From: Halopseudomonas sabulinigri
Lineage (GTDB): Bacteria; Pseudomonadota; Gammaproteobacteria; Pseudomonadales; Pseudomonadaceae
DNA: 64,000 bases
Reading direction: 5' to 3'
Assembly (NCBI RefSeq): GCF_900105255.1
Contig: NZ_LT629763.1
Span: 3,606,001-3,670,000, forward strand
Of the stretch, positions 13,816 to 30,838 are shown one piece after another. Under the pieces are notes generated by a model. That model searched no databases and was not told where the DNA came from. It worked only from the letters and a program-made list of their open reading frames with translations. Positions within the stretch are counted from its first letter, which is position 1, and every line of letters begins with the position of its first letter. The position numbers and the translations under genes are program-made.

Positions 13816-14400
13816 GTGGCGGAAGCCCCACAGAATCTTGAACAGATGCTGGACCACATAGCCAGTTTGACTGGCGATGATCAGCGCATTTCGATGGGCG
13901 AGGTAGTCGAGTCGGTAGGCAGTCGCTCCTTTGGCCCCTTGCTGCTGATTATGGGGGTCACGCTGTTTTCGCCTTTGAGTGGTATTCCCGGCATGGCGGT
14001 GTTTGCCGGGCTGTTCGTCATGTTGATCGCCGTACAGATGCTGATTGGCCGCAAGAATTTCTGGCTGCCTGCGTTCATTCTCGACCGCTCGGTACCGCAG
14101 CAAAAGCTGCACAAGGCGATCGACTGGGTCAAACCGGCCGCGCGGCGAATCGATCGTCTGATCAAGCCGCGGCTGAACTTTATGCTGCACCCTTCCTCTA
14201 CCTATTTACTGGCCGGCTTGTGTGTTGTCGTAGCGGCGGGCTTGCCGTTTCTCGAGCTGGTGCCCTTTTCTTCATCCATCGTTGGTTTGGCGCTGGCCAT
14301 TCTGGGCTTGGCACTGGTGGCGCGCGATGGACTGCTGGTGTTGATCGCCGTGGTTTTTATTGTGCTGGCGGGAGGCCTGCTGGCCGCCAAACTGTTGTAA
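13816..14400 (+). CDS. ExoD family membrane protein
   Basis: A 194-residue protein with the ExoD layout: a soluble N-terminus containing ISMGEVVESVGSRSFGPLLL, then helices around PLSGIPGMAVFAGL and a hydrophobic C-terminal half (ALAILGLALVARDGLLVLIAVVF). ExoD was named for an exopolysaccharide phenotype in rhizobia; its molecular role is unknown. The start is GTG at 13816 with GAAGGAG 7 bp before. It stands alone and is probably transcribed separately from thrC. Confidence 0.85.
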   Translation: MAEAPQNLEQMLDHIASLTGDDQRISMGEVVESVGSRSFGPLLLIMGVTLFSPLSGIPGMAVFAGLFVMLIAVQMLIGRKNFWLPAFILDRSVPQQKLHKAIDWVKPAARRIDRLIKPRLNFMLHPSSTYLLAGLCVVVAAGLPFLELVPFSSSIVGLALAILGLALVARDGLLVLIAVVFIVLAGGLLAAKLL

Positions 14401-29137: not shown

Positions 29138-30214
29138 GTGGCTTTTCTGCAGGATGTGATGGACGCCATTGGTCATGCCGTACCGCTGCTGGAAACTCTG
29201 CTCGTGGTGGCGCTGGTACTCTGGTGCGCAGACTATCTGCTGATCCGCCGACATGGTGGTCTGGGTAACGAGAAGCTGTTCTCTCGCCAATTGGTGATGC
29301 TGGGGTTGACCCTGGTAGGCGTGGTAGCCGTGGTACTGGCGCTGCCGGTCAACGAGGGGTCGCGCAACCAGATCATCGCCTTGCTGGGCTTGTTGATCTC
29401 CGGCGTGTTCGCCTTTTCTTCCAGCAACATTTTCGCCAACCTGGCGTCGGGGATTCTGCTGCGGATCACCAAACCCTTCGGCATCGGCGATTTTATCTCT
29501 GTCGGCAGCCATTTCGGTCGGGTGGCCGAGCGCGGTCTGTTTGATACCGAGATCCAGTCCGAGAGCGGCGAGCTGATCGCGCTGCCCAATACCTACCTCA
29601 CCACCAATCCGGTCTCCGCGCTGCGTAGCGACGGCGCGCTGGTGTCTGCCTCGTTGTCATTGGGTTATGACGTGCATCACGCGCAGGTCGAGCCGCTGCT
29701 GATCGAGGCAGCGCAGAGCAGCCAGCTGGAAGACGTTTTTGTGCAGATTCTCGAATTGGGCAACTTTGCCATCACTTACCGCGTCTCGGGGGTATTGCCG
29801 GAGGCCAAGGGGCTGATTACCGCGCGCTCCAATTTGCACAAGGCGATTCTCGATCAGTTGCACGGCGCGGGCATTGAAATCATGTCGGCGACCATCATGA
29901 ACCAGCGCCCGGTTGATGCTGGTTACAGCTTCATTCCCGCGCCGGCCCGCAGCCGTCCAGCGACGCCGCAGGCCGCGCCGGAAAAAATCGCTGAGAAAGT
30001 GCTGTTTGATAAAGCCGAGTTGGCGCAGCAGTTACAGCAGCGCAAGGCCGAGCTGGCGAAGAGCATGGAGGCGCTGGAGCAGCAGGCCAAGCAGGCGGAC
30101 GGTGACGAGAAGCAGCGCTTGAAGGACCGCATGGAGCAATTGCGTGAAGAGCGCAAACAGCTGGATAAGGCCGAAGAGGAACCGCTCAAGGTTGTCAGCG
30201 GCAAGGGCGAGTAG
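29138..30214 (+). CDS. MscS-family mechanosensitive channel with charged C-terminal tail
   Basis: A 358-residue channel. Three N-terminal helices end in the pore helix region LLISGVFAFSSSNIFANLASGILLRITKPFGIGDFI, followed by the beta domain (GRVAERGLFDTEIQSESGELIALPNT) and the alpha/beta domain. Residues about 285-358 are a highly charged, probably coiled-coil extension (DKAELAQQLQQRKAELAKSM and so on) that the E. coli MscS lacks. It should open on membrane tension during osmotic downshift. The start is GTG at 29138 with GGAGG before it. The half-MreB gene follows by 24 bp. Confidence 0.9.
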   Translation: MAFLQDVMDAIGHAVPLLETLLVVALVLWCADYLLIRRHGGLGNEKLFSRQLVMLGLTLVGVVAVVLALPVNEGSRNQIIALLGLLISGVFAFSSSNIFANLASGILLRITKPFGIGDFISVGSHFGRVAERGLFDTEIQSESGELIALPNTYLTTNPVSALRSDGALVSASLSLGYDVHHAQVEPLLIEAAQSSQLEDVFVQILELGNFAITYRVSGVLPEAKGLITARSNLHKAILDQLHGAGIEIMSATIMNQRPVDAGYSFIPAPARSRPATPQAAPEKIAEKVLFDKAELAQQLQQRKAELAKSMEALEQQAKQADGDEKQRLKDRMEQLREERKQLDKAEEEPLKVVSGKGE

Positions 30215-30238: not shown

Positions 30239-30838
30239 ATGCTGAAAAGTCTGCAGCGCAAGCTGACGCCCACCTACTATGTACAACTCGGTAGCGACGA
30301 GATGCGCATTACCGATGTCAGCACCGCCCAGGTACTGACCGAGCGTACCGTGCTGGCCCTGGAGACTGACGCCAAGGGCGTCAAGCAGGTGCTGGCCGTG
30401 GGGCGCGAGGCCAGTGCGCTGCCCGCGGGGAACGGCCGCGAGGTGCTCAAGGTGTTTGATCATCCGCGCATGTTGGTGGCGGATTTCGCGCTGGCGGAAA
30501 AGTTTTTGCAGTTGATGCTGAAAAAAGCCGTGGGCAAGCGTTTCCTGCGCGCTTCACCCAATGTGATCATGCACCCGATGGAGAAGCTGGAGGGCGGGCT
30601 TACTGAGGTGGAGCACCGGGTGTTACGTGAGCTGGCGCTGGGCGCCGGCGCCCATAAGGTGTGCGTCTACACGGGCGCGCCCCTGGCGGCACAGCAACTG
30701 GATTTTGCCGCGCTTCATCAACGGGAGTTGGAGGCGCTGGCGGTGCCGTCTCGGCGGGGAGGATTGAGCGGCGGGGCGCTACTGCTGCTGTCTTTGCTGG
30801 CGGCGGGCTTGTTACTGTGGTCGCGCTCGCAAAGCTGA
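30239..30838 (+). CDS. MreB-like N-terminal half with C-terminal membrane anchor
   Basis: A 199-residue protein. VLAVGREA, then HPRMLVADFALAEKFLQLML and TEVEHRVLRELALGAGAHKV followed by TGAPLAAQQL, align in order with the first half of MreB (AVGxxA, the VIADF segment, VERRAIRESAxGAGAREV, EEPMAAAIG). The phosphate-1 loop DLGTANT of MreB is replaced by QLGSDEM. The second half (domain II) is missing, replaced by a linker (SRRGGLSGG) and one helix, ALLLLSLLAAGLLLW. It cannot form a normal ATP site alone. It lies in the mscS operon. Function is unknown. Confidence 0.78.
   Translation: MLKSLQRKLTPTYYVQLGSDEMRITDVSTAQVLTERTVLALETDAKGVKQVLAVGREASALPAGNGREVLKVFDHPRMLVADFALAEKFLQLMLKKAVGKRFLRASPNVIMHPMEKLEGGLTEVEHRVLRELALGAGAHKVCVYTGAPLAAQQLDFAALHQRELEALAVPSRRGGLSGGALLLLSLLAAGLLLWSRSQS

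Follow-up and report, generated by a model that had tools for sequence, protein, structure and literature searches.

A half-length relative of MreB with a predicted membrane helix and its scattered family, mainly in Gamma- and Betaproteobacteria

The 64,000-nucleotide stretch of Halopseudomonas sabulinigri DNA analyzed here, called the window below, carries on its forward strand a gene (30239..30838, +) that encodes a protein of 199 residues made of MreB domain I and a predicted C-terminal transmembrane helix. A preliminary description, made from the sequence, had presented this half-MreB as a membrane-anchored paralogue of the first half of MreB that might link tension sensing, through the mscS gene in front of it, to cell-wall growth. 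The locus therefore raises the question of whether such a protein is the remnant of a complete mreB gene or a protein in its own right and, in the latter case, what half of an actin could do. As a natural half of an actin, half-MreB also tests which MreB surfaces matter without polymerization.

MreB domain I without domain II

Kinship with MreB was analyzed by profile searches. The Pfam model PF06723 (MreB_Mbl) matched residues 15-151 of half-MreB with positions 6-134 of its 327 (E 1.3e-10; 41.1 bits for a cut-off of 27), which bears out the claim that only the first half of MreB is aligned, and the family profile matched eight distinct PDB sequences (E up to 1), all of them MreB, the best at 7.6e-14. 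The full-length MreB model TIGR00904 gave 40.5 bits, below its cut-off of 365.75. The gene starts with an ATG, so that the good start attributed to it stands, though the AGGA found 11 nucleotides ahead lies rather far for a ribosome site. When PF06723 was run over the whole genome, a complete mreB was found elsewhere (488 bits) and nothing beyond profile positions 6-134 was matched at the half-MreB locus, where the next gene, yebC, lies on the opposite strand in convergent orientation. On these two grounds we rejected a frameshift hiding the second half, a possibility that the preliminary description had left standing. Since the second half is not nearby, neither a frameshift nor an interruption accounts for the length of half-MreB; its second domain is lost, as had been proposed.

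The AlphaFold2 model of half-MreB, computed from an alignment of 53 family sequences (pLDDT 91.4, pTM 0.80), shows in order a helix at residues 2-9, the strands and helices of actin domain I, a helix at residues 156-168 and a helix at residues 179-198. Foldseek placed MreB on top (4cze, E 2.8e-9, 28% identity). With VIA-align the model was superposed on Caulobacter MreB 4cze with a Z of 17.0 (138 aligned residues, rmsd 2.0) and on the modelled chain 9a5t_B with a Z of 18.3 (151 aligned residues, rmsd 2.5), and this comparison confirmed the domain I fold expected of an MreB relative. The top 20 rows contained MreB or Mbl only; below them came BeeR and MamK (Z 13.4 to 13.2), further Spiroplasma MreBs (13.1 to 12.6), then Arp and actin (12.5 and lower). 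The model of a 127-residue family member, L179, had a pLDDT of 88.1 and reached a Z of 12.7 against 4cze. For the window protein, the last aligned chain residue of the top 20 rows falls at 328-345, in the C-terminal part of MreB, and because of this half-MreB looks like domain I closed by the usual last helix, which would here be residues 156-168 (30704..30742, +). As far as the end points of these ranges can tell, this suggests that half-MreB is a domain I from which domain II has been removed rather than a chain cut in the middle.

Retention of the MreB motifs was scored on an alignment of the 53 halves and 34 distinct MreB N-terminal parts. At the phosphate-1 site (residues 14-22, 30278..30304, +) the SIDLGTANT of the genome's own MreB is replaced by YVQLGSDEM, and its retention over the 53 halves is 0.08, in agreement with the loss of this loop noticed beforehand in the window protein. 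The catalytic EEPMA has a mean retention of 0.02, and from its second E onward all 53 halves have a gap. Half-MreB keeps MreB domain I without domain II or recognizable nucleotide motifs. Because domain II and these motifs were looked for and not found, we do not count it as MreB proper; it may work like half of an MreB subunit.

A scattered family under purifying selection, and E. coli YjaA

A profile scan of the named genomes led to the identification of 58 half-MreB loci, nearly all of them in Gamma- and Betaproteobacteria, in genera that include Halopseudomonas, Pseudomonas, Shewanella, Microbulbifer, Alteromonas, Paucibacter and Polaromonas; one is labelled Acaryochloris. The alignment of 53 sequences comprises the window protein and 52 of these loci. 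Two loci from which no ORF was extracted (L155 and L186) and four more, which were long, cut short or set aside for other reasons (L154, L166, L181 and L184), were left out. The family has three forms, of about 199 residues with a membrane helix, about 164 residues and about 100-130 residues, the mid-length and short forms being without a transmembrane helix. Many mid-length forms (e.g. L144, L164 and L169) have in common a C-terminal tail like SRxxPxxGGxxL. At L122 (G240) two short half-MreB genes lie about 11 kb apart (2621-2941 and 13906-14226). The Acaryochloris case (L157) is a half-MreB on an 8.9-kb contig of a MAG and lies near the Shewanella and Pseudidiomarina forms, which points to transfer or contamination.

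Within the order, a half-length frame was present in at least 21 of 390 genomes among the matches listed, with up to 8 candidates scored per genome, and a full-length frame was also visible in at least 16 of these 21. The half form was found in 10 of the 37 genomes of the genus sample, own genome included. An MreB match at E 1e-8 was obtained in 382 of the 390 genomes of the order and, as nearly all of them have MreB, the co-occurrence of half-MreB and MreB says nothing. Wherever both genes could be placed, full mreB was on another contig or more than 100 kb away from half-MreB. Viral contigs gave no confirmed half-MreB relative. Most matches on plasmids (26 records, 15 of them listed) and in phages (8 records) stop close to residue 151 and resemble complete MreB; one match, on a Comamonas plasmid, spans residues 9-162. 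A single-sequence scan of genome contigs returned 598 stretches, none of which was confirmed.

In a quick tree of 75 rows, one branch (SH-aLRT 100) split 12 MreBs from 63 half-MreBs, and the short forms grouped together (SH-aLRT 92, below the level at which branches were starred). The membrane-helix label, which was set by length (190 residues or more) and not by prediction, changed four times on this tree. Pairwise dN/dS was 0.084-0.171 in eight of eight close pairs, all drawn from other family members because the window gene has no near enough relative. This indicates purifying selection and upholds the earlier view that half-MreB is not a random truncation. The half-MreB family, so far uncharacterized, is old, selected, scattered and akin to MreB. 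Some copies do look broken, one being in two frames (G620) and another cut short (L181), as would be expected of decaying remnants of a duplicated mreB, but the dN/dS values refute this explanation for the family, which forms one deep group with invariants of its own, and we give it hardly any credence.

The search also bears on YjaA of E. coli, known mainly as a strain-typing marker encoded by a phylogroup-typing gene. The best NCBIfam match of the window protein was the YjaA family NF041448 (56.6 bits, E 2.5e-15), and the short form L179 reached 83.5 bits with the same model, both scores being below the 125-bit cut-off. E. coli K-12 YjaA (b4011) aligned with the half-MreB family profile in hhalign at 98.9% (E 3e-17), and it fell inside the short group of the tree, on a long branch. 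YjaA itself matched none of the MreB models in Pfam (E up to 1) or NCBIfam (E up to 0.01), and the full MreB of the window genome had no match to the YjaA model (E up to 1). Because the intermediates match both models while YjaA and the tested MreB do not match each other's, the half-MreBs bridge YjaA and MreB. Judged by profiles and tree, E. coli YjaA is a short member of the half-MreB family, and it would gain a structural identity through these intermediates. Among 5426 complete E. coli genomes, yjaA was found at megablast sensitivity in 2583, at a coverage of 80% or more in 2576. In NZ_CP116411.1, a divergent yjaA-like stretch (4488234-4488495; 89.7% over 73% of the query) is annotated as hypothetical. 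A role in the response to peroxide, cadmium and acid has been attributed to YjaA (PMC3050900). No title or abstract start found in the literature presented it as an MreB relative.

Neighbours of half-MreB genes

In the window, half-MreB does follow mscS, as the preliminary description pointed out: the ORF of the MscS-family channel (29138..30214, +) ends 24 nucleotides ahead of it. This position is not conserved in relatives. The H. aestusnigri locus repeats the order of the window, with an XRE regulator, half-MreB, yebC and the gene after it (79%, 44%, 90% and 72% identity, respectively); half-MreB starts 17 nucleotides behind the regulator match, and only mscS is absent. In a survey of 86 distinct loci with a home-made three-sequence profile, which may miss divergent channels, three had an MscS-family gene no more than about 6 kb away, where about one is expected by simple arithmetic from 227 MscS matches in 47 genomes. 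The three are the window (adjacent), L136 (two genes upstream) and L044 (about 4.2 kb away), the last two being weak single-sequence matches that Pfam showed to be MscS genes. There was no MscS match within 20 kb in any of 13 other half-MreB genomes, the nearest lying at about 23 kb (G620). A partnership with a mechanosensitive channel, by which tension would be coupled to wall growth, can draw on the adjacency in the window and on the channels near L136 and L044. The H. aestusnigri locus, which preserves the gene order yet has no mscS, and a count close to chance nevertheless make such a partnership highly improbable, and as a general rule we rejected it. The channel gene is a neighbour in H. 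sabulinigri and no conserved partner. At its C-terminus, the MscS-family protein encoded in the window is extended by about 80 residues; this extension is charged and is matched only weakly by unrelated coiled-coil models.

Beyond close relatives, no conserved neighbours were found with greedy longest-ORF gene calls; such calls misplace genes in GC-rich DNA and hid yebC at the H. aestusnigri locus, where it was recovered by tblastn, and an LprI gene at L170. One association, with lysozyme inhibitors, is suggestive. In a Marinobacter MAG a single ORF (L130:5998-6957) consists of half-MreB, a membrane helix and an LprI lysozyme-inhibitor domain (E 1.2e-13), which fits a cytoplasmic half-MreB with its C-terminus outside. 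In Paucibacter an LprI gene lies just upstream of half-MreB (E 1.5e-11), and in a Burkholderiales MAG MliC stands directly behind half-MreB in the same frame (L154:6481-6867, E 2.3e-17); because this frame crosses a run of G at the join, we counted it as an adjacency and not as a sure fusion. Altogether, 3 of 47 genomes have LprI or MliC joined or next to half-MreB, with 0.03 expected if 4500 genes per genome are assumed and 25 MliC matches are used (26 exceed the cut-off). The link is post hoc, having been sought after one fusion was found; minus that case two remain (p 4e-4), a figure that is still post hoc.

A further explanation is that half-MreB serves as a decoy and draws off toxins or phage proteins directed against MreB, a known toxin target (PMC5624674). 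The patchy spread of the half forms, both in the genus sample and among the E. coli genomes with yjaA, would suit a decoy, but PADLOC returned no match for the window protein, YjaA or L179, viral contigs were without a confirmed relative, and just one of ten upstream genes scanned with Pfam was Mrr-like, namely an Mrr-type restriction endonuclease gene just upstream of half-MreB in a Hydrogenophaga MAG (L165:4932-5987). Moreover, the numbering of the CbtA-related MreB residues E196 and E262 places them in domain II, which half-MreB lacks. We consider a decoy function improbable.

Conserved surfaces and a proposed role at the MreB filament

The segment of half-MreB that aligns with the main antiparallel dimerization helix of MreB and the AGA behind it (residues 122-138, 30602..30652, +) is the best-conserved element. 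In the alignment of halves and MreBs, MreB-invariant columns are retained at 0.71 in this segment (15 columns) versus 0.26 elsewhere (97 columns; Mann-Whitney p 1e-4). At the site of V124, the counterpart of CcMreB V118, all 53 sequences have I, V, M or L; E125 and E131 do not vary, and position 127 holds R or K. The main dimerization helix of Caulobacter MreB is Ala117-Ala130, and the V118E substitution leads to single protofilaments, while EcMreB-V121E does not restore rod shape and cells stay spherical (PMC4051119). DnaK of the same genome, aligned to an MreB profile, shows the reverse of the half-MreB pattern: it has 6 of 9 phosphate-1 residues, 3 of 5 EEPMA residues, the EP among them, and 4 of 17 residues of the helix segment, versus 2 of 9, 0 of 5 and 12 of 17 in the window half-MreB. 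A single remote sequence makes a crude control, and the helix belongs to the core of the domain as well, so that this comparison does not decide the argument from the helix. The dimer helix may be kept for packing the core of domain I.

Several elements bear on the location of the protein. The N-terminal MLKSLQRKL (residues 1-9, 30239..30265, +) is predicted to form an amphipathic helix as in Gram-negative MreB; its hydrophobic moment of 0.72 lies at the 98th percentile among the N-termini of 988 neighbour ORFs called mechanically. Mean moments were 0.540 in the 53 halves, 0.567 in 21 MreBs and 0.328 in the 988 neighbour ORFs (p 8e-14), a contrast that is perhaps overstated because family starts were picked for agreement with the profile, whereas background starts were mechanical. 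A hydrophobic loop (residues 99-106, 30533..30556, +) lies at the site of the MreB membrane-insertion loop, its F102 and L103 aligning with F102 and I103 of the genome's own MreB. The N-terminal stretch of E. coli MreB binds the membrane, and a membrane-insertion function has been described for the hydrophobic loop of MreB (PMC3163269). The C-terminal anchor announced by the preliminary description holds as a prediction, hydropathy reaching 2.26 over residues 176-193 and the last AlphaFold2 helix coinciding with the predicted transmembrane segment (residues 179-198, 30773..30832, +). Because of the amphipathic N-terminus, the hydrophobic loop and, here, also the transmembrane helix, half-MreB is predicted to lie on the inner face of the cytoplasmic membrane in MreB's own orientation.

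Other conserved residues are the family's own. A (P)FxHPR motif stands in place of the MreB PMKDG (residues 72-77, 30452..30469, +), with H75 in 52 and R77 in 53 of the 53 sequences, and the family-specific loop HPMEKLEGG (residues 112-120, 30572..30598, +), four residues longer than that of MreB, has H112 in 48, G119 in 53 and G120 in 52. F73, H75, R77, H112 and G119 are nearly invariant in the 53 halves and, save for one G, absent from these positions in the 34 MreBs; the short forms in one of the alignments keep R77 and most of the EGG, without H75. From topology, the loops that carry these residues should border the former nucleotide cleft, where they may form a new binding site. They are the least explained part of the protein.

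We tentatively propose, at somewhat less than an even chance, that half-MreB is a nucleotide-free half-actin held at the membrane, where it docks on the MreB flat face and modulates MreB double filaments. The amphipathic N-terminus, the hydrophobic loop and, in this protein, the transmembrane helix would hold it at the inner membrane face, and the kept dimer helix would let it dock on the flat face of the MreB filament, where an antiparallel protofilament would pair. Half-MreB should neither bind ATP nor polymerize lengthwise, and would therefore limit or locally modify the formation of double filaments; wall elongation would in this way be tuned, probably in response to stress on the envelope or of another kind. 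Binding to the MreB filament, one of the two modes put forward earlier, is plausible because the best-conserved element corresponds to the MreB inter-protofilament dimer helix. The other, a lengthwise cap, we favour less, since half-MreB has lost the domain-II side of the lengthwise interface (CcMreB S283); its domain I might nevertheless contact the other end. If half-MreB binds MreB, it would be an elongasome regulator, testable in E. coli through one small gene.

Several observations speak against docking: the invariants peculiar to the family hint at another partner, full mreB is remote from half-MreB, neighbourhoods are not conserved beyond close relatives, the mid-length and short forms are without the transmembrane helix, and YjaA diverges in the GAGA segment and at the site of H112. 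It is possible, though we would not call it probable, that half-MreB is a half-actin scaffold that no longer touches MreB, with the former cleft binding another protein or a ligand and the membrane elements serving as an anchor. Nearly invariant residues unlike those of MreB, on loops that should face the cleft, would suit such a scaffold, as would an orphan gene without shared neighbours, but the strong retention of the dimer helix would then need a second reason. A broader version of the docking proposal, in which the half-actin of Gamma- and Betaproteobacteria, YjaA included, is a stand-in for the second protofilament whose rebuilt cleft holds a second partner, linking elongation with envelope stress and, in certain lineages, with the inhibition of lysozyme, seems doubtful to us as a whole.

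Among known systems, MreB (PF06723, TIGR00904) has in common with half-MreB the domain I fold, the dimer helix, the N-terminal amphipathic helix and the hydrophobic loop. MreB has domain II, the phosphate-1 loop and the catalytic EEP, which half-MreB lacks, whereas half-MreB has the FxHPR and HPMEKxEGG motifs and, directly behind domain I, a helix that takes the place of domain II. BeeR, MamK, FtsA, PilM, Arp and actin share the actin domain fold with lower Z values than MreB; the matched structures are two-domain proteins, and half-MreB is nearest to MreB by sequence and by fold. YjaA (NF041448, b4011), assigned to the same family by profile, has 127 residues and, unlike the window protein, is without a piece of about 30 residues that bears AVGxEA and without the membrane helix; its GAGA segment diverges and S replaces H112. 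CbtA is a small E. coli toxin that binds MreB, and changes on the flat side of MreB alter this interaction (PMC5624674). Half-MreB may be likened to it as a small protein for which the MreB flat side would matter, the likeness being one of functional analogy only.
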